Below, one piece after another: positions 3,095-29,743 of a DNA stretch of 64,000 nt (positions are counted from its first letter, which is position 1; each line of letters begins with the position of its first letter). The notes below the pieces were generated by a model that did no database searches, was not told the origin of the DNA, and saw only the letters and a list, made by a program, of their open reading frames with translations. Source of the stretch: Polyangiaceae bacterium (GTDB taxonomy: Bacteria; Myxococcota_A; Polyangia; Polyangiales; Polyangiaceae); the NCBI GenBank assembly GCA_023150915.1, contig JAKLKA010000057.1, positions 1 through 64,000 on the forward strand, read 5' to 3'. The position numbers and the translations under genes are program-made.

Positions 3095-4048
3095 TCACCG
3101 GGCCTGCTGCGCAAACCACTGCGCCAGCGGGGACGGCGGTTTGCACGGCGCCACCACGGCATCCCACGGGCCCTCGAGTTGAGCGGCGTGTGAGAACACG
3201 ACCCATGCGCCGCAGCGGTCGCAGTCCGCGTTGTTTCCATAGCAGCACTTCGGCGAGGAAAAGCCTCCCTTTTCCACGTACAGCGGGAGCACGGTGCGCA
3301 GCGCGGGGCATGCGGCGGTGACCAGGTGCGCGGTCGGCGGGCGCATCAGCTCGAGGGCGCGGCGCGAATTCCAGATGAAACTGGGATACTTCTCCTTGAG
3401 TGCAAGGGCCGCGTCGACGGCGCTCTCGCGCTCGACCACGTCGCGCCACGCCAGCTCGGACTGTTCGCCTTCGCTGGGCACGTGAAAGGTGAACGCCAGG
3501 CCATTCACCGGCGTGTCGATGAATGCGACCACCAGCTCTTCCAGTCGATGCTGGTTCAGCTTGGTGACCACGCACTGGATCTGGACGGTGGGCGAAAATC
3601 CGGGTGGAAGCCCCAGTAGGTTCTTCCGCACGCGCGAGAAGACGCCTTCGCCGCGCACGCTGTCGTTCAGGGCCTCTGGCCCATCCAGCGAGACGACGTA
3701 GGTGATCTCGGGTCCGAAGTCTCTGAGTGGCACGGTGCCATTGGTGGTGATGATGTTGCGCGAGAAGAGCTTCACCCCACGCTCGAGCAGTCGCCAGCGG
3801 ATCATCGGCTCGCCGCCCATCCAGAGCATGGCGTACAGACCGTGCCGATCGCGGATCCGCTCGACCTCGCTCAGCAGTTGGTCGTCCGGAATGTCGTCGC
3901 CTGGATCGTTGGGGTTGCCGTCGGTGTAGACGAAGCAGTGCCGGCACTTCAGGTTGCAGCGATTGGTCACGTTGATCATCGCCGCGGGGAAGCGCGGGGG
4001 CGGCTCTCGGCTCAATCGGTCGTGGGCGCCGAGCACCGGCAGTCGCAT
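3095..4048 (-). CDS. Radical SAM protein with Cys-rich C-terminal extension
   Basis: This encodes 317 residues from the ATG at 4048. The CxxxCxxC motif NRCNLKCRHCF lies at about residues 29-39 and would bind the [4Fe-4S] cluster that cleaves SAM. WMGGEP (about 81-86) is the GGE motif that contacts SAM, and ITTNGT and YVVSLDGPE are core barrel strands. The C-terminal third has Cys residues in 'CPAL', 'SPKCCYGNNADCDRCGAW', consistent with a SPASM/Twitch-like auxiliary cluster. Such enzymes often modify peptides or act in cofactor maturation, but no obvious precursor peptide is adjacent. It is divergent from the lipoprotein gene at 4126. A TACACT element lies 7 nt before the start. Confidence 0.85.
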   Translation of the reverse strand: MRLPVLGAHDRLSREPPPRFPAAMINVTNRCNLKCRHCFVYTDGNPNDPGDDIPDDQLLSEVERIRDRHGLYAMLWMGGEPMIRWRLLERGVKLFSRNIITTNGTVPLRDFGPEITYVVSLDGPEALNDSVRGEGVFSRVRKNLLGLPPGFSPTVQIQCVVTKLNQHRLEELVVAFIDTPVNGLAFTFHVPSEGEQSELAWRDVVERESAVDAALALKEKYPSFIWNSRRALELMRPPTAHLVTAACPALRTVLPLYVEKGGFSSPKCCYGNNADCDRCGAWVVFSHAAQLEGPWDAVVAPCKPPSPLAQWFAQQAR

Positions 4049-4055
4049 GGGCGAC

Positions 4056-4061
4056 AGTGTA
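4056..4061 (-). promoter_or_regulatory. Putative -10 element (TACACT) of the radical SAM gene
   Basis: TACACT on the minus strand ends seven bases before the ATG at 4048, with no Shine-Dalgarno. It is one of a set of similarly placed TANNNT elements in this window. Confidence 0.4.
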
Positions 4062-4125
4062 GCGTTTGTGCCGGGCAGTGGCCGCGAACTGGCGCGTGGG
4101 CCCCGAGCCGTGCGATGGTGCGCCC

Positions 4126-4524
4126 ATGGGTGAGCGGAAGAAGATGGGCGCGTCGCGTTCCCTGGTGGCAGTGCTGGCCGGGTTTCTGGCCCCCCTGGTG
4201 ATGGCGGGCGGGTGCAACAAGTGCCAGAAAGAAGAGGCACCCCCGCCGTTGCCGACGGCCACCGCGGTCGAGACGAAGCCCGACGCGCAGCTGGTGCTCG
4301 AGGTCGAGGACGCTGCCGACGACGGCGATGCGGCTGACGGCGACGCCAAGAAAGTCGGCACCGGCAGCTCGGCGAGCATGAAGAAGTGCTGCCAGGCCGT
4401 GGCGCAGAACGCCGAGAGCGCGCCCGAGCCGACCAAGACGTACATGAAGCAGATGGCCGCAGCGTGTTTCGCGGCTGCCGGCGCCGGCAAGGGCTGGAGC
4501 GGCGGCGGCTTCAGCTGCAAGTGA
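4126..4524 (+). CDS. Cys-containing putative lipoprotein
   Basis: This encodes 132 residues from ATG 4126; ATG 4144, preceded by GGAAGAAG, is an equally possible start. A hydrophobic signal segment (SLVAVLAGFLAPLVMAGGC) ends in a lipobox-like AGGC, so the protein is probably lipid-anchored. Next come a Pro-rich then Asp/Ala-rich linker (about residues 38-75) and a C-terminal helical part with CC, C and C residues (MKKCCQAVAQN...AAACFAAAG...FSCK), perhaps forming disulfides. I know no family. It is divergent from the radical SAM gene; the start codons are 77 nt apart. Confidence 0.65.
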   Translation: MGERKKMGASRSLVAVLAGFLAPLVMAGGCNKCQKEEAPPPLPTATAVETKPDAQLVLEVEDAADDGDAADGDAKKVGTGSSASMKKCCQAVAQNAESAPEPTKTYMKQMAAACFAAAGAGKGWSGGGFSCK

Positions 4525-4587
4525 CGCCCTGACGGGGAAGCCCGCGGTGGTGCCGGGCGTATCAGGCCTCGCTCGGAGGACCTCGCC

Positions 4588-5076
4588 ATGCGCTCGAATC
4601 GACGTCACGTGCTCGCTTGCCTGATCGCGGTGCTCTTCGCCTTGCTGGCGTGCAAGGGCAAGCCCGAGACCCGGGCCAGGGTGGGCGAGACCGTGACGTT
4701 CGAGGACAGCCAGTGGGAAGTGGTCGGTGCCAGCTTCATCGGCAACCAGATCCAGAGCTTTGGTACCGACAAGAAGACCGCCGGCAAATTCCTCAAAGTC
4801 GACTTCAAGGTCACCAATACCTCGAAGCAAGACGAGACCATCCTCGATCATCCCAAGGTGTTCGACGACCAGTCGCGCGAGTTCAAGGTGCTCGACGACC
4901 AGGCGATGTACGTGCACCAGCCCGAGCAGACGCTGACCCTCGAGAGCCTGCCGCCGTCGATGATGAAACGGTTCACTGCGATCTACGAGCTGCCGAAGGA
5001 CGCCCAGGGCTTGTCGTTCGAGGCCCGCGCGCTCAGCGCCTTTGGCGAGCGGCGCAAGGTGAGCTTGGGGATCTGA
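4588..5076 (+). CDS. DUF4352-like lipoprotein
   Basis: This encodes 162 residues. A GGAGG ribosome-binding site lies about nine bases before ATG 4588. The signal peptide ends in LLAC (Cys22), a clear lipobox. The mature part reads like the DUF4352/telobox-type immunoglobulin-like beta-sandwich: 'VGETVTFEDSQWEVVGA', 'GKFLKVDFKVTNTSKQDETI', 'FDDQSREFKVLDDQAMYV', then 'FTAIYELPKDAQGLSFEARAL'. These domains are extracytoplasmic and of unknown ligand. The stop is 14 nt before the thioesterase start, so the two are probably cotranscribed. Confidence 0.8.
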   Translation: MRSNRRHVLACLIAVLFALLACKGKPETRARVGETVTFEDSQWEVVGASFIGNQIQSFGTDKKTAGKFLKVDFKVTNTSKQDETILDHPKVFDDQSREFKVLDDQAMYVHQPEQTLTLESLPPSMMKRFTAIYELPKDAQGLSFEARALSAFGERRKVSLGI

Positions 5077-5090
5077 CGGCGAGGCCGCGC

Positions 5091-5531
5091 ATGTTCGAGC
5101 CCAACGACCCACGGTGGCGCGAGCGCGCCGGCGAAATCTTCAGCCGCGCGCCCTTCGTGCGTGAGCTCGGCATACGCCTGGTCGACCTGGGGCCCGGCTG
5201 GGTCGAGTCCGAGCTGCTGGTCGAGGCGCGCCACATGCAGCAAGACGGCGTCGTCCACGCCGGCGTCCAGGCGACGCTGGCCGATCACAGCGCCGGCGCG
5301 GCTGCTGGCACGCTGGCGCCGGCCGGCCACGCCACACTGAGCGTCGAGCTCAAGATCCAGCTGCTGCGTCCAGCGCTGGGTGAACGCTTGCGCTGCCGCG
5401 CCCAGGTGATCAGGCCGGGGCGCACCATCGTGGCCACGGAAGCCTGGGTGTACGCCGTCGCCGCCGGGGAAGAGAAGCTCGTCTCGCAGCTCACCGCGAC
5501 GATGACCTACGCGGCACCAAAGACCGGCTGA
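5091..5531 (+). CDS. PaaI-family hotdog-fold thioesterase
   Basis: This encodes 146 residues from ATG 5091 with GAGG six bases upstream. The sequence matches the hotdog thioesterase pattern: 'FVRELGIRLVDLGPGWVESEL', the central helix region 'MQQDGVVHAGVQATLADHSAGAAAG' with the H-x-G followed by Asp that serves catalysis in PaaI-like enzymes, then 'LSVELKIQLLRPALGERLRCRAQVIRPGRT'. It probably hydrolyses an acyl-CoA or aryl-CoA thioester in the cytoplasm. The substrate cannot be read from sequence, and no pathway genes flank it. Confidence 0.85.
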   Translation: MFEPNDPRWRERAGEIFSRAPFVRELGIRLVDLGPGWVESELLVEARHMQQDGVVHAGVQATLADHSAGAAAGTLAPAGHATLSVELKIQLLRPALGERLRCRAQVIRPGRTIVATEAWVYAVAAGEEKLVSQLTATMTYAAPKTG

Positions 5532-5587
5532 GCCACGCTCATGGAAGGTCCGTGGTTCCACGGCGCGGTTCGTGATAGCAGAGTCGA

Positions 5588-7321
5588 ATGTCGCGGTCCG
5601 CGCTGCTCCTGGCCTGTGTTCTGCCCTGCTTGGTTCTTGGCGTCTCCTGCGGTGGCGACGATGACTCGTCGAGAGGCACCGGAGGCGTGGGGGGTACTTC
5701 GGGCAGTGGTGGGGCCGTCGCCGGCGGGGGCGCCGGTTCGGGCGGCGTCGGTGCCAGCGGCGGGACGGGAGCCACGGCGGGTAGCGGCGGCTCCACCGGT
5801 GGCAGTGCGGGTAGCGGGGGTGGTGGAACGGGCGGCGACGGCGGCCCCGGCGATGCGGGTGATGCTGGCGTCGTCGGTGTCTACGTGGACTGTCTGAAGG
5901 GCAGTGACACCACGGGCAATGGGACGCTGAGCGCTCCCTTCAAGACCATCGAGAAGGCGGCCGGCGTCGCGACGAAGGGTAACGTCGTGACCATTCTCGA
6001 TGGCAAGTGCGACGAGACGACCGAGCCCAAGTTCGCCCAGGCCAACGGGACCATCGACATCCCGGACGGGGTCGGCGTGCAAGCGGCGAACGCGGGCAAG
6101 GTCACGCTGCAGGGCGCCGCCGCCCTCCGCTCGTCGGGCCTGAAGTTCCTCGGCTCGGGTAGCGTATCGGGGCTCGCCTTCGTGCGCTTCGGTCGGGCCA
6201 TCTCGGCCTCGGCCGGAACCCTCACCGTGCAGGGCACCTCGTTCGACGACATCTGGCAGGGCAGACCCCTGGAGCTCAGCGGCAGCGTGGTCGCCACGCT
6301 CGCTCCCGGATCGCTGACCAACTACATTGGCACGAATCAACACGGCTTTGCCTTGCTGCAGGGCAGCGCCAAGCTGACCCTCAGCGGCGGCAGCATCGGC
6401 GGTGCGCTGGATTCCTCCGTCTCTGGCGACGCCCTGTTCCTGGTTCGCGATGCCTCTGAGCTGGTCCTGAGCGGCGTCACGCTCACCGACAACAAGCTGA
6501 GCGGGGTCGCTGCGCGGAACACCGCGAAGGTCCGCCTCACGAGCCAGACGTCGTTCAAGAACACCGCGTCGCTCGCGTGCTGCGGCCAATCGTCGGTTCG
6601 GCTGCAAGACGCGAGCTTGCTCGAAATGACGGACTCCAAGATCGAGGGTGCCTCTGCCCCCGCCATCCTCGTGGGCGACGCGACCGCAGGTGGGTCGGCG
6701 GCGCCCACGCTGAACCTGAAGAACGCCAGCCTCACCGGGAACTCCCATGGAATCTTGTCGCTGTCGACGATCACTGCCGTCCCGACCGTGACGCTGGACG
6801 GCGTGACCATCGGCAGCAACGGCGGGGGGATCAGCCTTCAGTCCGGCGGGCTCGTGGACATCAAGGCCAGCGCCATCAAGGACAACAAGACCCCCTGCGG
6901 CCCTGGCATCTACATCGGCAAGCCGTCGGTGGTGAGCTCGCTCAAGATGCGCTCGACCGAGGTGAAGAACAACTGCACCGCCGGCGTCCAGTTCCTCGGC
7001 GCGGCCGGCTCGACCCTCGACCTCGGGCGCGGGGACTCACTCGGCCAGAACACGCTCAGCGGCAACGGGGTCTCGGGCGTGGGTGGTCTGACGGTAGAGA
7101 CCGCCGCGGCCATCACGGCGTACGCTGCCGGCAACACCTGGATCGCAAGCGTGCAGGGCGCCAGCGGCACCGGCACGTACGCGGTGCCGACAGGACAGAA
7201 CAAGCTGGACGTGACGGGCGCCGTGATCGGCCAGAACTACGCCATCAAGGGCTCAGCTGCCGCGAGCATCGTGATCCGCCTCGCCGAGAATGCCTGCATC
7301 CCGCAGCAGACCTGCAACTGA
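5588..7321 (+). CDS. Lipoprotein with Gly-rich linker and beta-helix (DUF1565-like) domain
   Basis: This encodes 577 residues. The signal peptide ends in GVSC, followed by CGGDDDSS. Residues about 30-90 are a Gly/Ser/Thr/Ala-rich linker (repeats of TGGxGGTxGSGG). The rest begins with 'VYVDCLKGSDTTGNGTLSAPFKTIEKA', the hallmark opening of DUF1565/right-handed beta-helix proteins. It continues with repeated coils such as 'SGLKFLGSGSVSGLAF', 'LVLSGVTLTDNKLSGVAARN' and 'VTLDGVTIGSNGGGISLQSGG'. It is likely surface-exposed and passenger-like, with a possible polysaccharide-binding role. It is architecturally similar to the protein at 1-1761 but is lipid-anchored. Confidence 0.85.
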   Translation: MSRSALLLACVLPCLVLGVSCGGDDDSSRGTGGVGGTSGSGGAVAGGGAGSGGVGASGGTGATAGSGGSTGGSAGSGGGGTGGDGGPGDAGDAGVVGVYVDCLKGSDTTGNGTLSAPFKTIEKAAGVATKGNVVTILDGKCDETTEPKFAQANGTIDIPDGVGVQAANAGKVTLQGAAALRSSGLKFLGSGSVSGLAFVRFGRAISASAGTLTVQGTSFDDIWQGRPLELSGSVVATLAPGSLTNYIGTNQHGFALLQGSAKLTLSGGSIGGALDSSVSGDALFLVRDASELVLSGVTLTDNKLSGVAARNTAKVRLTSQTSFKNTASLACCGQSSVRLQDASLLEMTDSKIEGASAPAILVGDATAGGSAAPTLNLKNASLTGNSHGILSLSTITAVPTVTLDGVTIGSNGGGISLQSGGLVDIKASAIKDNKTPCGPGIYIGKPSVVSSLKMRSTEVKNNCTAGVQFLGAAGSTLDLGRGDSLGQNTLSGNGVSGVGGLTVETAAAITAYAAGNTWIASVQGASGTGTYAVPTGQNKLDVTGAVIGQNYAIKGSAAASIVIRLAENACIPQQTCN

Positions 7322-7395
7322 CCCCCCGCCCGAGGCTCTGCGCGACGCGAAAGCACGCCGCTTGCTGCACCGGATTTGGGGTATGAGCAGGGGGC

Positions 7396-7527
7396 ATGAC
7401 GCCACGGCGACCCCGCCCTTCGTTCGACGGCCGCGCGGCTCCCAGCTGGTGCGGGCTCACGGCCGCGGTCACCGTGCTCTCGTGCGGCGCGGCGCCAGGT
7501 GCGTCGCCAAGAGCGTGCTCGCGCTGA
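7396..7527 (+). pseudogene. Possible remnant of a lipoprotein gene (signal peptide only)
   Basis: A 43-codon frame from ATG 7396, behind a G-rich stretch, encodes a basic N-terminus and then 'LTAAVTVLSCGAAPGA', which looks like a lipoprotein signal peptide with lipobox VLSC. It then stops at 7527. A second frame continues beyond (ending at 7574), so this may be a frameshifted or deleted lipoprotein gene. It could also be chance in GC-rich DNA. Apart from this and the TAAGCT element at 7640, I see nothing in 7322-7654. Confidence 0.2.
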
Positions 7528-7639
7528 AATTCCCGTCTCGCCCGCGCATGGACGTCACGAAGACGACCTTCTGATCCCGGTACGGTGCCCCGAGACCCGC
7601 CGTGTCTCCCGCGGGCTGTTCTGGCCTGCTTGCGGGGCG

Positions 7640-7645
7640 TAAGCT
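7640..7645 (+). promoter_or_regulatory. Putative -10 element (TAAGCT) of the DUF6151 gene
   Basis: TAAGCT ends nine bases before ATG 7655. There is no Shine-Dalgarno between, consistent with a very short or absent leader. Confidence 0.4.
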
Positions 7646-7654
7646 CGGCCGGGC

Positions 7655-8293
7655 ATGCCGATCGACATCCCCCTCCGCTGTCGCTGCGGCGCCGTGCGCG
7701 GCGTCGCTCGCGCCGTCTCACCAAAGACCGGTACGCGCGTCGTCTGCATGTGCATCGACTGCCAGACCTACGCTTGCTTCCTGGGCCGTGACGCAGACCT
7801 GCTCGACGAGCATGGGGGCACCGATATCTTCCAGCTCGCGCCGGGACAAGTCGAAATTCGGGAGGGCTCGGATCAGCTGCGGTGCGTTCGGCTGAGCCCA
7901 AAGGGCGCAATGCGGTGGTACACGGAGTGCTGCAAGACCCCAGTGGGCAACACGGCCCCGTCGCCGCGGGTTCCGTTCGTGGGCATACCTCACGCGTTCA
8001 TGGACCACGGCGAGACCGCGGGTGGACGCGAGCGAGATCTCGGCCCGGTGTGCTATCGCGTGCAGGGCCAGGATGGCCACGGAGAGCTTCCGCCGGGATC
8101 CCATCCGGCCTTTCCGCGCCGCTTGCTCGCGCGCACGGCTTGGCTGCTGCTCCGCGCCACCCTCAAAGGCGTGGCGCGGCCGAGCCCGTTCTGGAGCGAG
8201 CGCGGGCGGCCGCGGGTCGAGCCCCAAGTGCTCTCGAAGGAAGAGCGGGCGCGCCTCCGGCAGCAGTGCGAGCGTTCGGTTGCTGCACACTGA
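7655..8293 (+). CDS. DUF6151 (GFA-like, Cys-rich zinc-binding) family protein
   Basis: This encodes 212 residues. The N-terminus has the paired Cys motifs of this family: 'LRCRCGAVRG' (residues about 7-16) and 'VVCMCIDCQTYACFLG' (about 29-44). Then come 'GGTDIFQLAPGQVEI', 'LSPKGAMRWYTECCKTPVGNT' and 'VPFVGIPHAFMDH'. It resembles the glutathione-dependent formaldehyde-activating (Mss4-like) zinc fold, but biochemical function is unknown. The C-terminal 50 residues (RARLRQQCERSVAAH) form a basic helix. It is monocistronic by spacing. Confidence 0.8.
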   Translation: MPIDIPLRCRCGAVRGVARAVSPKTGTRVVCMCIDCQTYACFLGRDADLLDEHGGTDIFQLAPGQVEIREGSDQLRCVRLSPKGAMRWYTECCKTPVGNTAPSPRVPFVGIPHAFMDHGETAGGRERDLGPVCYRVQGQDGHGELPPGSHPAFPRRLLARTAWLLLRATLKGVARPSPFWSERGRPRVEPQVLSKEERARLRQQCERSVAAH

Positions 8294-8297
8294 GCGC

Positions 8298-8527
8298 GAA
8301 CGGTCGCGTTCCCGCCGCTCGTGCGATTTGCCCGCGCGGCTGCTGAAGAATCTCTCCGTCCGGTTCTCCGCTGCGGCAGCTGCCGCCCGGGGAGCCGGGC
8401 TCGCGCTGGAACTTGGCAACCACGCTCTCACCGGACTTCGCCGAGTCCGGCGCAAACGTCGGCCCGCCAGCGCCCAAGTGCCGACCACGAACGTCGGCGT
8501 TCCCGCCGCCCCCGCCGATTTGCCTAC
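8298..8527 (+). repeat. Degenerate direct repeat pair plus perfect hairpin in the 275-nt gap before fliO
   Basis: Two related segments, about 8298-8334 and 8489-8527, share 'GAACG-TCG', 'CGTTCCCGCCG' and 'CGATTTGCC' in the same order. Between them, CCGGACT (8431-8437) and AGTCCGG (8444-8450) form a perfect seven-base-pair stem with a six-base loop. The hairpin lacks a U-run. It could act as a terminator after the DUF6151 gene or as an operator. No gene is visible in 8294-8568. Confidence 0.4.
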
Positions 8528-23583: not shown

Positions 23584-24972
23584 ATGAAGAGAGCGCTTTT
23601 GGGCGTGTTGATGGTGACGTGGATCCCGCTCGGCTGTGCCGGCAGCACCGAGTCGGCTCCTCCGCCGACTGCGCCGCCCGCGCCCAGCCCGGCACCGCTG
23701 CCGCCGCCCGCGCCGGTGGCGCCGCCTGCACCGGTGGAGCCCGCCAAGCCGAGCATGCTCGACCAGCAGAAGGCGCACATGGCCGCCAACGTTGCTGCGT
23801 GGCAGGCTCACGACGCGAAGAAGCTCGCGGCACTCTACGCCGACGACGTGGTGCTCGGGTTCCCGTCGATGGAGGGCTGGCGCGAGACCCGCGGCCGCGC
23901 CGACCTCGAGAAGAACATGGCCGAGTTCTTCGCCGCGTTTTCCGACGCGAAGGTGACCACCCTGCGCGGCATTCACGCCGGCGACGTGCTGGTCCTCGAG
24001 TGGCTGCTGAGCGGCACGCACAGCGGTGACTTCATGGGTGCCAAGCCAACGGGCAAGCGCATCGGTTACCGCGGCGTCAGCGTGCTCTGGTTCGGCGACA
24101 AGGGCGTCAAGCGCGAGCACATGTACTTCGATCACGTCACCTTCATGGCGCAGATGGGCACCGCGCCGAAGGGCATGGTCGGTCGACCGTTGATGGAGGT
24201 GCCCGCCGGGCACGAGCCCGAGTGGGTGGTCGCGGCGAACAACGACGTCGAGAAGAAGAACGCCGAGGCAGCGACGGCGTTCTATGCGACGTGGGAGAAG
24301 AAGGACAGCAAGGCGTTCTTGGATTCGCTCACGGAAGATGCCCAGCACTTGGACTTCTCTCGTCCCGCGGACGGGCAGAAGGGCAAGGCCGCGGCCAAGA
24401 AGGACTTCGACGCGTTCATCAAGGCCTTCCCGGACATGAAGATGAACGTGAAGAACATGTGGGCGGCTGGCCCGTATGTGGTGCTCGAGTCGGAGGCGAC
24501 CGGCACGTTCAAGGGTGCGCTGGGTCCGCTCAAACCCACTCAGAAGACCGGCACCCTGCACGGCTTGGACGTGATGAAGCTCGCTGACGGCAAGCTGGCG
24601 CTGGGTCACTCGTACGGCTCGGGCGCCGAGTTCGCCGGGGCGTTCGGGCTGATGCCCAAAGATGCGGGCAAACCGCCGGCGAAGCCCGCCGGCGGCGTGA
24701 AGGCGCCCAGCACGCCTCTGCCGCCGCCGGGTCTGCCGCCGGCCGGTGGGGCCAAGCCGGGCGGTGGCGCCAAGCCCACGCCGCCCCCCGCAGGCGGGCC
24801 CAAGCCGCCGCCGCCTCCCGGTGGCGCGAAGCCGCCCGCGCCTGGCGCCAAGCCGCCTGCGGCCGGGGCCAAGCCGCCCGCGCCGGTCGGCGCACCCAAA
24901 CCGCCGGCGCCGCCGGCGGGTGCCAAGCCGCCTGCGCCCCCCGCACCGAAGCCTCCGGCCCCCAAGCCGTGA
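23584..24972 (+). CDS. Lipoprotein with two SnoaL-like (NTF2-fold) domains and a Pro/Ala/Lys repeat tail
   Basis: This encodes 462 residues. The signal ends in PLGC. After a Pro-rich linker there are two tandem NTF2/SnoaL-like domains. The first (about 60-200) has 'AWQAHDAKKLAALYADDVVLGFPSMEGWRETRGRADLEKNMAEFFAAF'. The second (about 215-360) has 'FYATWEKKDSKAFLDSLTEDAQHLDFSRPADGQKGKAAAKKDFDAFIKAFPD'. From about residue 365 to the end lies a low-complexity tail of AKPPAP-type units. SnoaL-like folds can be enzymes or binding modules; no catalytic set is evident. The protein is secreted and lipid-anchored. Confidence 0.75.
   Translation: MKRALLGVLMVTWIPLGCAGSTESAPPPTAPPAPSPAPLPPPAPVAPPAPVEPAKPSMLDQQKAHMAANVAAWQAHDAKKLAALYADDVVLGFPSMEGWRETRGRADLEKNMAEFFAAFSDAKVTTLRGIHAGDVLVLEWLLSGTHSGDFMGAKPTGKRIGYRGVSVLWFGDKGVKREHMYFDHVTFMAQMGTAPKGMVGRPLMEVPAGHEPEWVVAANNDVEKKNAEAATAFYATWEKKDSKAFLDSLTEDAQHLDFSRPADGQKGKAAAKKDFDAFIKAFPDMKMNVKNMWAAGPYVVLESEATGTFKGALGPLKPTQKTGTLHGLDVMKLADGKLALGHSYGSGAEFAGAFGLMPKDAGKPPAKPAGGVKAPSTPLPPPGLPPAGGAKPGGGAKPTPPPAGGPKPPPPPGGAKPPAPGAKPPAAGAKPPAPVGAPKPPAPPAGAKPPAPPAPKPPAPKP
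24700..24970 (+). repeat. Degenerate tandem repeats encoding a Pro/Ala/Gly/Lys tail
   Basis: Near-repeated units of the type gccaagccgcctgcg recur in frame through the end of the gene, encoding GAKPPAP-like heptads with variation. It is a low-complexity, cell-wall-spanning style tail. Confidence 0.8.
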
Positions 24973-25748
24973 AGCGCGGCGCGTTCGTCGCGGCGGCGCT
25001 GATCGCGGGCTGTGGCTCTCCTGCTGCGCCCGCATCGCCGCCGCCGCACGTCGCGGCTGCGCCGGCGTCAGACGCGCCTGAGCCCGTGCCTGCGCCCGCA
25101 GCGAGCATCACGCCCCCGGCGGGGCCGGTGCGTGCGCCCGAGCCCAAAGGGCAGGCGTCCCTTGCGCTCCACGTCGAGCGCGGAAAACGCCAACCGCTCT
25201 CGCTGGTGGGGACGCTCGATGCGATCCGCCCGCCCTCCGGCGATCAAGGTCTCGACGCCTGGATCGAGCTCACGCTCAGCGTCGCCGGGAAGCCAGAGAA
25301 GCTCTACCTTCAGTCCTCGCCCCCGGCGTTGCCCCTGCCGCTCGAGACCGGCGCTCGCCTCTCCGTCGAGATCGACTGTCGGCGGGGAGGCTGGCATCGG
25401 GTCTGCGACGGGGTGTTTCGCGACGCGGCCCGCCGCACCCTGATGATCGTCGCGGGCAGCGGCGATGAAGCGGCCGCGCCCGGGTGGAAGGTCGCGCGGG
25501 GCGCGGTGGCCACCAGCGAGGTGCGTCCGTCGAAGGAGAGGTCCGTGCTTCATACCCACTCGCTCGAGTTCCAGTCCGACGGGGCCAGGGTCTCTGCCAT
25601 GCCCCACGAGTGGAAGCGCATCGTGGTTCACGGCCGCAGCTTCCTGGTGACCGGCTACGAGGTGGTGTGGGAGGGGCAGCGCCCACCCGACGCGCGAGAT
25701 CACCGGTCGTTTGCCATCGTGTTCGAGAAGCCCGCCGCCGGGCCTTGA
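24969..25748 (+). CDS. Lipoprotein of unknown function
   Basis: This encodes 259 residues from GTG 24969, overlapping the previous TGA by four bases. The signal peptide ends in IAGC, followed by a Pro/Ala spacer to about residue 60. The mature domain (about 65-255) is beta-rich: 'ASLALHVERGKRQPLSLVGTLDAIRPPSGDQGLDAWIELTLSVAGKPEKLYLQSSPPALPLPLETGARLSVEIDCRRGGWHRVCDGVF', with two Cys that may pair. No family is recognised. Coupling to the NTF2-fold lipoprotein suggests a shared envelope role. Confidence 0.7.
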   Translation: MKRGAFVAAALIAGCGSPAAPASPPPHVAAAPASDAPEPVPAPAASITPPAGPVRAPEPKGQASLALHVERGKRQPLSLVGTLDAIRPPSGDQGLDAWIELTLSVAGKPEKLYLQSSPPALPLPLETGARLSVEIDCRRGGWHRVCDGVFRDAARRTLMIVAGSGDEAAAPGWKVARGAVATSEVRPSKERSVLHTHSLEFQSDGARVSAMPHEWKRIVVHGRSFLVTGYEVVWEGQRPPDARDHRSFAIVFEKPAAGP

Positions 25749-25782
25749 CCTCACTGGGTCAGAGAAGAACATTTTCGGCCAG

Positions 25783-26790
25783 GTGGACCGCGAGCCCAAC
25801 ATCGTCGAGCGCATCCGCCGCAGCGACGAGCGCGTGCACGTCGCCATTGGCGCGATCTGCAACAACAACTGCGTCTTCTGCATGGAAGAGGACCGCGACG
25901 GACGCTACGTGAACAACTCGGCGATGACCGCCGAGCGGGTGCGCTGGGTGCTCGAGTCGCACCGGGGGGCGGAAGAGGTGTGTTTCACCTCTGGCGAGCC
26001 GACCACGCGCGACGACCTGCCGGGCTTCATCGCGCTGGCGCGGGAGCTCGGCTACCCGCGGATCAGTCTGATGACCAACGGCCGGCGCCTTGGTCACTTG
26101 CCGTACGCCGCGGCCCTGGCGAAGCGCGGCCTCGGTCGCGTATACATCTCGATTCACGGGCACGAGCAGGCGTTGCACGAGGGCCTGACTCGTACCCCCC
26201 AGAGCTTCGAGCAGACCGTGGCGGGGCTGCGTTCGGTCGCCAAGCTGGCCGCGTTCGGTGTCGAGCTCCACACCTCGACCGTGGTCACCAAGCGGAACTT
26301 GCCGCACCTGGGCGCCATTTATCGGTTCTTGCGCGGGCTGGGCGTGCACCAGGTGGTGTTCAACGTGATGCAGGCGAATGGACGAGCGCACACTCACTTC
26401 GAACGGCTATTTCCCCGCTACACCGAGATCGCCGCCGAGGTTGCCGGCATGCTGGCCGGGCTGAACGAGGCGCAGCCGATGGCGTTCCTGGTCGACATTC
26501 CCCTGTGTACCACCGAAGCCGTCCCCGATCGCGCCCGCGGCTACGTCGAGAAGCATCGCCACTACGATCTGGATACCGGCACCGGGCCCGAAGAGCGGCG
26601 GGCGAGCGGAAAGGGCAGGGGGCTGGCGCTCTGGACGCGCGCCGACCTCGATCGCGCTCAGCGTGAGAAGCGCGACGAATGCCGCCGCTGTCGCTACGAC
26701 GCCGTCTGCGAGGGCGTCTGGAAGAACTACTTGGCGCGCTACGGCTGGGACGAGATGGAACCCGTGCCTGGCGCTTCCGCCGCACAATGA
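25783..26790 (+). CDS. Radical SAM protein with SPASM-like C-terminus
   Basis: This encodes 335 residues from GTG 25783. The next in-frame start upstream is ATG 25711, inside the previous gene, so the N-terminus is uncertain. Cluster motif: 'GAICNNNCVFCMEED' (C-x3-C-x2-C). 'EVCFTSGEPTTRDDLP' carries the SAM-contacting GEP. Also present are 'ISLMTNGRRLG', 'VYISIHGHEQALHEGLT' and 'LHTSTVVTKRNLPHLGAIYRFLRGLGVHQVVFNV'. Near the C-terminus, 'DECRRCRYDAVCEGVWKNYL' gives CxxC...C spacing typical of a SPASM half-site. Substrate unknown; the gene ends seven bases before the converging LtrA-Kir gene. Confidence 0.85.
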   Translation: MDREPNIVERIRRSDERVHVAIGAICNNNCVFCMEEDRDGRYVNNSAMTAERVRWVLESHRGAEEVCFTSGEPTTRDDLPGFIALARELGYPRISLMTNGRRLGHLPYAAALAKRGLGRVYISIHGHEQALHEGLTRTPQSFEQTVAGLRSVAKLAAFGVELHTSTVVTKRNLPHLGAIYRFLRGLGVHQVVFNVMQANGRAHTHFERLFPRYTEIAAEVAGMLAGLNEAQPMAFLVDIPLCTTEAVPDRARGYVEKHRHYDLDTGTGPEERRASGKGRGLALWTRADLDRAQREKRDECRRCRYDAVCEGVWKNYLARYGWDEMEPVPGASAAQ

Positions 26791-26796
26791 GCCCGC

Positions 26797-28872
26797 TCAG
26801 ATCGCGGTCGTCTCGCTGAACTTGTCGTAGTCCACCGCCAGGCGGCCATCTGGCAGGTCGCTGATCACGTCGACGAAGCGGTGCCCGAAGCGGATCTCTT
26901 CGGGGTAGTAGCTCTTGCGCGCGTAGGTCGTGGTCCCGTACGTGCCGTCGTGTCCCATCAGGGTGCAGACGATGCCGCGCACCTTGTCGTGGGCGTTCTC
27001 GGGCGTGATGTCTCGCATTGGGCTGTCGTCGCCCACCACGTGCATCACCAGCCACGAAAGGGTGAACAGCGGCTGGGTCGAGCGCTCGAGCGGTAGCTCG
27101 TACAGGCGCCGCAACTTGTGGCCCTCGGGCGTCACCTCGTCGCGCAGAACGGTGACCCGAATGCTGGCCTCGACCACGTCGTTCCCCCGGGCGTTGGCCA
27201 CCCGAAACATCAACGTGGGCTTGCCCTGGCGCGGCTCGACGGTCATCACGTTGCTGAACAAGACACCCGAGCGCGGGCGGGCCAGCTTCGCGAAGATCAG
27301 GCCGGTGACCACCGCCACGCTGACCAGCGAGAGGGCCGCTTCGACCGTCACCAGCACGTTGGTGAAGGTGCTGGCCGGGTGCAGCGCGCCATAACCGATG
27401 GTGGCCATGGTCTGCACGCTGAAGAAATAAGCGTCCAAGAACGAGCGCGGCGCTGCGTTGGCGATACCACCCGGGTCGAGCAGGTAAAGTGACGCGAACA
27501 CCAGATTGCCGAACGAGTAGGCAAAGGCGCAGGCGCCGAACAGCCGCCACCACGAGCCTTCCATGAAGTAGACGTAGAGGTCGCGCCGCAGCGCGCTGGG
27601 CGCGCCGCGCCGCACCGCGTCGCCAGGGTCCCAGCGCTTCGCCCCCGGGGCAGGCGCGGCGAGCTCAGGGGGCTCCGACGAGCGGGTGGTGACGTGGGCG
27701 TGGTGGTCGGCCTGGCGGGGCGATGTAGAGATGTCGAAGACCACCTGGGCCACGCAGACCACCGCGATCAGCCCCAGCCAGACGAAGGTGGGGACGAACC
27801 CGCCCACCACGCCGAGCGCGAGCACCAACACCGCCGAGACCAGCCGTGCGCTGACCCGAGCGCCGTCGGGCAGGTCCGACTCGCGCCGCTCGGTCAGGTG
27901 GTCGATGAAGCCCACGGCCGCCAGAGCCAGGGCCAGACTTCCGCAGAACAGCCAGCGGTACTTGGCCGAGCCGATGTCCGACAGGCCCATGGTCGCGGCC
28001 TTCTTCAGTGAAACGCCCACCGCCGTGACGGCCACGGCGAGCGGCAGGTGGCCGTAGACCCAGAGCACGCTGCCCAGACGGCGCGCCTTCAAGCGCGCCC
28101 CCGCCACGTCGTCGAAGTAGATCCACCAGATGGTGCACGTGACCAGCAGCCCCAGGGCCGACAACGTGCCGGTCTCGGGTGTGACGCCGCGCTCGGCGAG
28201 CTCGGAGAGCACCTTCACGAAACCCTCGCCCAGCACGATCAACACCAAGATGGCGTAGCGCTCCGAGACGTGACCGAAATCGATCGGGAAGCGCTCGATG
28301 ATGCCGATGGCGTTCTTGCCGAGCGGCGTCGAGAGGTCCACGGCTTGTGCCACTGCCCAGAGGAAGAACGCCCAGGGGGGTGGGACGAACGCGCTGGCCA
28401 GCCACACCGCCGCGCCCAGGGCAAAACCGATCCCGTAGCGCCGGGTCATGCCGCGGGCCTCGGGCACCTGCGCGTGGGCGCGGGCATACATCGCCACCAC
28501 CGCGAGCCGCGCGGCGCCATACGCGAGCGCAAAGGTCTGATGCTGCCCGTCCAGAACCTTCGGAACGCTGGCGGCCACGGCGCCGATGGCGAGCATCTGG
28601 CCGAACACCAGCAAGCGGTGAGCGGCGTCGTCGACCTGGAAGCGGTTGTTGTAGAAGGTGAACCCGGTCCAGGTGAACCAGAGCGGGATCATCAGCCCCG
28701 CAAAAGCCAGCGCGCCGAACCAGCTCACGTGCGACGCCAGCGCCGTGCCCAGCTGGATCAGTGCCGCGACGTACACCAAGTCGTAGAACAGCTCGAGCCA
28801 CCCGACCTTGCGCTCGTGGCCCGGCCTGGGGGTCCAGAGCACCGCCTGGTGGAACCACCGACTCTGCACCAC
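26797..28872 (-). CDS. LtrA-KirBac fusion: membrane protein plus inward-rectifier potassium channel
   Basis: This encodes about 691 residues from GTG 28872 (GTG 28869 equally possible). The N-terminal half (about 1-380) is an LtrA-family (PF06772) membrane region of roughly ten to twelve helices. It has the family opening 'VGWLELFYDLVYVAALIQLG' and later 'HVSERYAILVLIVLGEGFV'. A polar linker (about 385-427) leads into a complete Kir channel: slide helix 'RDLYVYFMEGSWW' (Met437), first helix, pore with selectivity filter TIGYG at 491-495, and second helix. The beta-rich cytoplasmic domain follows, with KirBac motifs 'LMFRVANARGNDVVEA', 'PLFTLSWLVMHVVGDDSPM', 'RFGHRFVDVISDLPDGRLAVDYDKF'. It probably conducts K+ in the inner membrane. 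The role of LtrA in the fusion is unknown. Confidence 0.92.
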   Translation of the reverse strand: MVQSRWFHQAVLWTPRPGHERKVGWLELFYDLVYVAALIQLGTALASHVSWFGALAFAGLMIPLWFTWTGFTFYNNRFQVDDAAHRLLVFGQMLAIGAVAASVPKVLDGQHQTFALAYGAARLAVVAMYARAHAQVPEARGMTRRYGIGFALGAAVWLASAFVPPPWAFFLWAVAQAVDLSTPLGKNAIGIIERFPIDFGHVSERYAILVLIVLGEGFVKVLSELAERGVTPETGTLSALGLLVTCTIWWIYFDDVAGARLKARRLGSVLWVYGHLPLAVAVTAVGVSLKKAATMGLSDIGSAKYRWLFCGSLALALAAVGFIDHLTERRESDLPDGARVSARLVSAVLVLALGVVGGFVPTFVWLGLIAVVCVAQVVFDISTSPRQADHHAHVTTRSSEPPELAAPAPGAKRWDPGDAVRRGAPSALRRDLYVYFMEGSWWRLFGACAFAYSFGNLVFASLYLLDPGGIANAAPRSFLDAYFFSVQTMATIGYGALHPASTFTNVLVTVEAALSLVSVAVVTGLIFAKLARPRSGVLFSNVMTVEPRQGKPTLMFRVANARGNDVVEASIRVTVLRDEVTPEGHKLRRLYELPLERSTQPLFTLSWLVMHVVGDDSPMRDITPENAHDKVRGIVCTLMGHDGTYGTTTYARKSYYPEEIRFGHRFVDVISDLPDGRLAVDYDKFSETTAI

Positions 28873-28900: not shown

Positions 28901-29743
28901 TCAAGGGGTAGCAGCCGCGAGCCCGTTGGCCTGCCATACTCGCGCCGGAGTGCGGAGCTTTGCGAGGTGAGGGGCGGCCTGTTCGGCGGCGATGGGCGCA
29001 GAGCGCACGAACCCGGCCTGCTCGAAGTAGCTGGCGATGGCCGCCCGGCTCGGGAAGTCTTCCCGCGCGCCGCGCCCGCGTGTGACGAGCCAGATCCCGG
29101 AACGGAGCAGCTTGGCTGCGGCCGCCACCGAGCGCCCACCCTCTTTCGACCTCAGATCGCACACGAAGCTGCCGCGACCGCCCAGCGCACGGGCCACCGC
29201 GCGGGCGACCCGCTCGCGCTCAGCTAGCTCGAAGTAGCCCAGCACGCCCTCCGAGACGACCAGCGGGCGGGACGCGCCGCCCAGGGTCTTCTCTAGCCAA
29301 GCTTCGAAGTTCGGGCCGGTGACGTCGACCGCCTCGTGGCGCAAGCGATCGCGCGCGCGCGACCGCACCGCTGCCGGGACTCGCTCCGCGATCATCTTTT
29401 GCTTCGCCTCGACCATGTGAGGCAGATCGATCTCGACGTAGTCGACGCCGCGATCGGCTGCCCAGGTCAAGCCGCGTCGCGACAGCCCCGCCCCGATCTC
29501 GACCACGCGGTCGGGGTTTGCCTGGTCGAGCGCGTGCTCGATGCAGCGGTGACGCAGCTCGAGGTACTGCAACATGGACGGAACCGTGGGGTGCACCACG
29601 GCAAGCCACTCGCCCGCGGCGCGAAACGACCAGAACAAGCGGCGACCCTTGGCCGTCACGAAGTGCTCGGCGTGCGGAAAACCCAGGCGGTGCCAGGCGT
29701 AGGCCGTGTAGTGAGCGGTGGGGGCGATTTCGGAGTGGGACAT
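28901..29743 (-). CDS. LCM/PPM-like SAM-dependent O-methyltransferase
   Basis: This encodes 280 residues from ATG 29743. The SAM-binding strand and loop are 'RVVEIGAGLSRRGLTWAADRGVDYVEIDLPHMVEAKQKMI' (about residues 78-118). Later come 'VSEGVLGYFELAERERVARAVARALGGRGSFVCDLRSKEGG' and 'YFEQAGFVRSAP'. The pattern fits the leucine carboxyl methyltransferase/O-methyltransferase group with 'IEIGAGlS.Rgl'. The substrate is unknown. It lies upstream of the LtrA-Kir gene with 28 nt between, and may be in one transcript. Confidence 0.85.
   Translation of the reverse strand: MSHSEIAPTAHYTAYAWHRLGFPHAEHFVTAKGRRLFWSFRAAGEWLAVVHPTVPSMLQYLELRHRCIEHALDQANPDRVVEIGAGLSRRGLTWAADRGVDYVEIDLPHMVEAKQKMIAERVPAAVRSRARDRLRHEAVDVTGPNFEAWLEKTLGGASRPLVVSEGVLGYFELAERERVARAVARALGGRGSFVCDLRSKEGGRSVAAAAKLLRSGIWLVTRGRGAREDFPSRAAIASYFEQAGFVRSAPIAAEQAAPHLAKLRTPARVWQANGLAAATP

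Follow-up and report, generated by a model that had tools for sequence, protein, structure and literature searches.

This locus raises two questions: whether an LtrA protein and a complete KirBac-type potassium channel are really joined in one chain and, if so, what the LtrA part could do for the channel. To our knowledge, LtrA has no established biochemical role. In Listeria, LtrA (low temperature requirement A) has been reported as necessary for growth in the cold (PMC5491136). The family is found in bacteria and archaea, with plasmid matches that include Listeria, Sinorhizobium, cyanobacteria, actinobacteria, and haloarchaea, while no further LtrA sequences could be confirmed on viral contigs.

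A recurrent LtrA-KirBac fusion of single origin

The window, i.e., the whole stretch of 64,000 nucleotides analyzed (contig JAKLKA010000057.1, from a Polyangiaceae genome), carries on its minus strand an uninterrupted frame that reads as one protein (Table 1). The original prediction had assigned the gene to positions 26797 to 28872; the single frame was right, but the start had been set one codon too early, given that the N terminus of the relatives (M-[RQ]-[SN]-R-W-[FY]-H) points to the GTG at 28869. In the resulting 690-residue numbering, the TIGYG filter, first reported at residues 491 to 495, is present one residue earlier. The gene is single copy in its genome (8.0 Mb, 295 contigs).

The proposed union of LtrA with a complete KirBac channel was confirmed by the frame itself and by Pfam and PDB sequence matches. 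Against Pfam, residues 22 to 376 cover positions 1 to 354 of the 356 in the LtrA profile (PF06772, E = 1.9e-75, 254.8 bits versus a cutoff of 31.9), so that the LtrA identity holds at the level of the HMM. The second part matched IRK_C (PF17655, E = 3e-28, 99.1 bits versus a cutoff of 22.5), IRK (27.6 bits, cutoff of 22.7), and Ion_trans_2 (33.2 bits). By sequence search of the PDB, it was aligned over residues 386/436 to 689 with KirBac1.1 (7swj, E = 4.8e-62) and KirBac3.1 (E = 2e-59). The slide helix, two transmembrane (TM) helices, TIGYG filter, and cytoplasmic beta domain of both channels are all there. However, the solved KirBac proteins are stand-alone chains of 301 to 333 residues, whereas here a 12-TM module stands in front.

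Table 1. Positions in the window of the fusion gene, its parts, and nearby genes
Feature	Position	Strand	Basis or remark
LtrA-KirBac fusion gene, 690 aa	26797..28869	(-)	Open frame; GTG start 28869, stop 26797-26799
LtrA module, residues 22-383, predicted 12 TM helices in two 6-TM halves	27721..28806	(-)	PF06772; AF2; TMEM175 match
LtrA TM1, residues 24-46, F28-Y29-D30 on TMEM175 FSD	28732..28800	(-)	+11 register; entropy 0.73 bits
LtrA TM7, residues 198-227	28189..28278	(-)	Entropy 0.99 bits; residue counts
Cytosolic linker, residues 384-425, disordered	27595..27720	(-)	Low pLDDT; length and entropy over 36 fusions
Kir slide helix, residues 426-438	27556..27594	(-)	Helix in model; aligned to KirBac1.1/3.1
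K+ selectivity filter TIGYG, residues 490-494	27388..27402	(-)	Alignment of 36 fusions
Kir cytoplasmic beta domain (IRK_C), residues 537-688	26806..27261	(-)	PF17655; KirBac3.1 structural match
LCM-type methyltransferase (PF04072)	28901-29743	(-)	31 nt upstream of the fusion, same strand
HxsC4-type radical SAM	25711-26790	(+)	NF038332, 553 bits versus a cutoff of 500
SnoaL-like protein (two such domains) with a long tail rich in Pro, Ala, Gly, and Lys	23584-24972	(+)	Side observation

The architecture had been singled out as striking, which it is, but it is no one-off. Within a sample of 379 Myxococcota genomes, LtrA was found in 48, and 33 of these carried a full-length fusion, and in a few more the fusion is truncated by a contig end. 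Among the sampled Myxococcota, LtrA thus occurs most often as this fusion. Full-length relatives, with 40 to 92% identity, belong to the same genus and family and then extend across the order and the phylum. Those that are named come from MAGs of Myxococcales, Kofleriaceae, Polyangia, and Holophagae; the nearest is a groundwater Myxococcales MAG whose protein is 92% identical. In the phylum of the Holophagae genome, 2 of 247 genomes have the fusion.

We aligned 36 distinct full-length fusions, and this set underlies the comparisons below. All are free of internal stops, and the filter follows the pattern [TS]-[IV]-G-[YF]-G in every one (TIGYG in 30, and TIGFG, SIGYG, TVGYG, or TVGFG in the remainder). 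A merger of two neighboring genes through misassembly or a sequencing frameshift is therefore rejected as a practically negligible possibility: the uninterrupted fusions come from independent assemblies, one of them (G085) on a 3.2-Mb contig, and their linkers are of similar length. The only split found, and the one case that would fit such a merger, is in a Saanich Inlet MAG (L039, positions 4001 to 6080; G493), where a frame change near residue 222 separates both parts, either by error or in a decayed copy.

A tree was built from 73 Kir domains. The 36 that are fused to LtrA fell into one clade (support of 100/99) together with a single Kir-only row (L010). Fusion state changed twice on this tree, versus 24.6 times with shuffled labels, indicating a single origin of the fusion and one later loss of LtrA. 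The exception, annotated also as L184 (positions 7367 to 8356, the same gene as L010), is nested within the fusion clade, and no remnant of LtrA was found beside it in its genome (G077). LtrA is thus not always needed, because one lineage lost it and kept the Kir channel. The same genome has a stand-alone TMEM175 elsewhere.

Pairwise distances of the LtrA and Kir modules were correlated (r = 0.64, reached in 0 of 1,000 permutations). Values of dN/dS against two congeners were 0.08 to 0.14 for LtrA, 0.04 to 0.20 for Kir, and 0.22 to 0.26 for the linker; both modules are under purifying selection. Taken with the single origin, the correlated distances and low dN/dS indicate that selection has retained the two modules together.

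Predicted fold of the LtrA module

The full-length AF2 model (pLDDT of 79, pTM of 0.56) showed an LtrA part with 12 helices and a Kir fold, joined by a disordered linker (pLDDT of <50 at residues 385 to 429). Its best solved matches were human TMEM175 for residues 3 to 391 (Z of 25.6) and KirBac3.1 for residues ca. 410 to 690 (Z of 24.0, rmsd of 4.1, 276 aligned residues, 40% identity). With this pTM and a disordered linker, the model does not define how the modules are placed relative to each other. Modeled alone, the LtrA module reached a pLDDT of 86.8 and a pTM of 0.86, again with 12 transmembrane helices rather than the ca. 10 first estimated.

The LtrA-alone model matched human TMEM175 (9vsp) with a Z of 25.5 over 345 residues at 4.0 A. 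Its ten top entries had Z values of 20.0 to 25.9, and the next, unrelated fold only 10.1. Six of the ten are titled TMEM175; the others, 6w8n, 6w8o, 6w8p, and 7lf6, bear generic titles, and we take them to be TMEM175 as well. Foldseek placed the same entries at ranks 1 to 6 with a probability of 1.00 and TM scores of 0.53 to 0.65, with modest E values (0.0016 to 0.02). The two-repeat organization of the vertebrate TMEM175 form, with six TM helices in each repeat, is reproduced in the predicted LtrA model. Human TMEM175 is a dimer of such two-repeat, 12-TM chains, in which TM1 and TM7 line the pore (PMC7141809), and it conducts K+ and H+ (PMC12818570).

At the sequence level, the relationship is much fainter. 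PF06736 (TMEM175) was not among the Pfam matches of the fusion protein up to an E value of 1, nor was it found in the genome that carries the gene, and a profile search of the PDB returned weak unrelated matches without TMEM175. When 47 LtrA sequences were compared with 55 bacterial TMEM175 sequences by hhalign, p values were ca. 0.05 to 0.1, not clearly separated from reversed controls, and the alignments ran end to end in the same register. The two LtrA halves aligned with each other at a p of 0.0025 (0.33 to 0.71 for reversed controls). The sequence comparisons thus gave no proof of LtrA-TMEM175 homology. Since the profile evidence is weak, we limit the claim to a shared predicted fold and regard homology as likely.

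This predicted fold is a new result here. In our search of the open-access literature, no paper joined LtrA with KirBac or with TMEM175, or TMEM175 with KirBac or with low temperature requirement. The fold and the natural fusion are two independent lines that point LtrA toward K+ or H+ membrane transport, and the conserved fusion provides a concrete lead on the role of LtrA that flux assays with the bacterial proteins could test. For TMEM175, a K+/H+ channel of the lysosome with a link to Parkinson's disease, the LtrA of the fusion would offer a new evolutionary comparison.

Conserved residues, putative path, and topology

The structural alignments begin at residues 21 to 23 of the model and 32 to 34 of TMEM175. 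This constant offset of 11 places F28-Y29-D30 on the FSD at 39 to 41 (numbering from PMC7176437 and PMC7141809) and W24 at the position of the TMEM175 Arg. The RxxxFSD motif is therefore changed to WxxxF[YF]D in TM1, where F and D are kept and R and S are not, and TM7 has no FSD. In the weak sequence alignment, W67 (TM2) pairs with the conserved TMEM175 TM2 Trp, and the equivalent Trp of the second half pairs with the WWxYF of TM8. LtrA thus shares with TMEM175 the two six-TM halves, F-x-D in TM1, and a conserved Trp on TM2 and TM8, along with TM1 and TM7 as the most conserved helices. It differs, apart from being joined to Kir, having no PF06736 match, and being only about 10% identical, at the gate and selectivity positions of TM1, as described below.

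Over the 36 fusions, entropy was lowest in TM1 (0.73 bits) and TM7 (0.99), compared with 1.40 to 2.07 in the other LtrA helices, the pattern expected of a functional path between these two helices. We compared the fusions with 11 stand-alone LtrA proteins, which end after TM12. Invariant or nearly so in both are E-L-F-x-D-L in TM1 and H-x-x-E-R and G-E in TM7; individual residues shared by both are E26, D30, L31, H200, E203, R204, G214, E215, Y251, and H274; I211 is a further conserved position of TM7. On top of these, the fusions have residues of their own, such as A35, K219, D254, D323, and R328.

Some of the latter bear directly on the path. The hydrophobic gate of TMEM175 (Ile or Leu at D+5, Ile46 in the human protein) and its Thr layer (D+8) are both missing from TM1 of the fusions. 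At D+5, 35 of 36 have Ala35, whereas the stand-alone proteins have F, V, L, or T; at D+8, I, L, or V is found in all 36, and Thr in 4 of the 11 stand-alone proteins. In TM7, whose register to TMEM175 is uncertain by ca. 1 residue, 34 of 36 fusions have K219, which none of the 11 stand-alone proteins has. An Ala at the gate, a replaced Thr layer, and a Lys in TM7 suggest that the path of the fusion LtrA has been remodeled, and it may not conduct. Four stand-alone LtrA proteins (L120, L127, L132, and L133) combine F35 with Thr38 and so are nearer to TMEM175 channels; judged by these residues, they would be better first candidates than the fusions for LtrA conduction.

Presumed cytoplasmic segments of LtrA contain 22.1 Lys plus Arg per protein, versus 1.8 in the external ones. 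This charge bias puts both ends of LtrA in the cytosol, so that the Kir slide helix lies on the usual side of the membrane. The intervening linker is 42 to 57 residues long in all 36 fusions, with a variable sequence (2.5 bits of entropy). Conserved in the fusions and not in the stand-alone proteins are A35, G41, F217, and K219 in TM1/TM7, together with D254, G257, D323, T326, R328, R338, and D379, which are near invariant in fusions and each present in at most 2 of the 11. The latter seven, and also R4, all lie at the cytoplasmic face, where they are likely to make contacts with Kir. That LtrA is covalently coupled to the channel, as had been put forward, is borne out by the single-origin fusion, the length-constrained linker leading to the slide helix, and these fusion-specific residues.

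Putative function and genomic context

Architecture and fold are well supported, and from them we infer the mechanism. On balance, we favor a KirBac-type K+ channel tethered to a TMEM175-fold LtrA module, whose probable role is to gate or complement the channel. Kir channels assemble as a tetramer around one pore, and the Kir part here would do so around a single TIGYG pore. The four LtrA modules would most likely pair as two TMEM175-like dimers beside it, because two-repeat TMEM175 proteins are dimers. LtrA might then sense ions, protons, or voltage at the membrane, perhaps via a permeation path of its own, and pass its movement on to the Kir gate by way of the short linker in the cytosol and the fusion-specific cytoplasmic contacts. 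The most likely function would thus be a regulated K+ conductance, with LtrA supplying the response to a stimulus. Of the stimuli first suggested, cold, pH, and lipid are at this stage speculative.

By analogy, LtrA would act on Kir as SUR does on Kir6 in the KATP channel, where a multi-helix membrane partner regulates a Kir tetramer. However, SUR belongs to the ABC proteins and forms a chain of its own, whereas here the partner would be a TMEM175-fold module acting in cis. The fusion would also combine, in nature, two channel folds of unrelated structure within a single polypeptide, and it would offer a simple bacterial model for how a membrane partner regulates Kir.

The main alternative to an LtrA-gated Kir channel is a second permeation path, possible because the predicted fold of LtrA is that of TMEM175, itself a K+/H+ channel; the co-transport unit of the original prediction can be recast in these terms. 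LtrA would be an active H+ or K+ channel, and each complex would have two pores, neither gating the other; proton or cation movement along one path might, for instance, balance the charge carried by K+ along the other. The conservation of TM1 and TM7, along with Q39 and E215, two near-invariant polar residues at or adjoining the TMEM175 selectivity layer, are in agreement with the predicted fold in this respect. We nevertheless consider two independent pores unlikely, since the changes from Ile to Ala and from Thr to Ile in TM1 and the Lys in TM7 suggest a path that is altered or closed (the Ala and the Lys being specific to fusions), and the fusion-specific cytoplasmic residues suggest contacts over mere colocation. 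A broader and equally tentative idea is that the LtrA family is an unrecognized branch of TMEM175-fold cation channels, and that Myxococcota have made from it a dual-pore complex with KirBac in which proton or cation flow through LtrA gates K+ flow through Kir.

LtrA could also be a membrane anchor that neither conducts nor senses and that aids the folding, clustering, or localization of Kir. The variable linker, the Kir-only member nested in the fusion clade, and the lack of conserved partner genes (see below) would fit such a passive role. We find it improbable, given that the strongest conservation concerns charged and polar residues of TM1 and TM7, needless in a passive anchor, and given the low dN/dS of LtrA. 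Regulation of Kir by LtrA thus remains our preferred reading.

Regarding the genomic context, the methyltransferase gene described upstream of the fusion is real, but it is no conserved partner, being kept only in a close congener (L031/L183). It and the downstream radical SAM gene were rejected as candidate partners, as both lie beside the fusion only in this closest congener. Next to 25 other fusions, we found no homologous neighbor at a fixed place, and the clusters shared were overlapping frames or scattered. With no recurring neighbor family, the fusion protein apparently functions independently of any operon partner. The second upstream neighbor is a cyclophilin. On the other side, the HxsC4-type gene is convergent with the fusion, 6 bases from its stop, and a His-Xaa-Ser peptide system may adjoin it.
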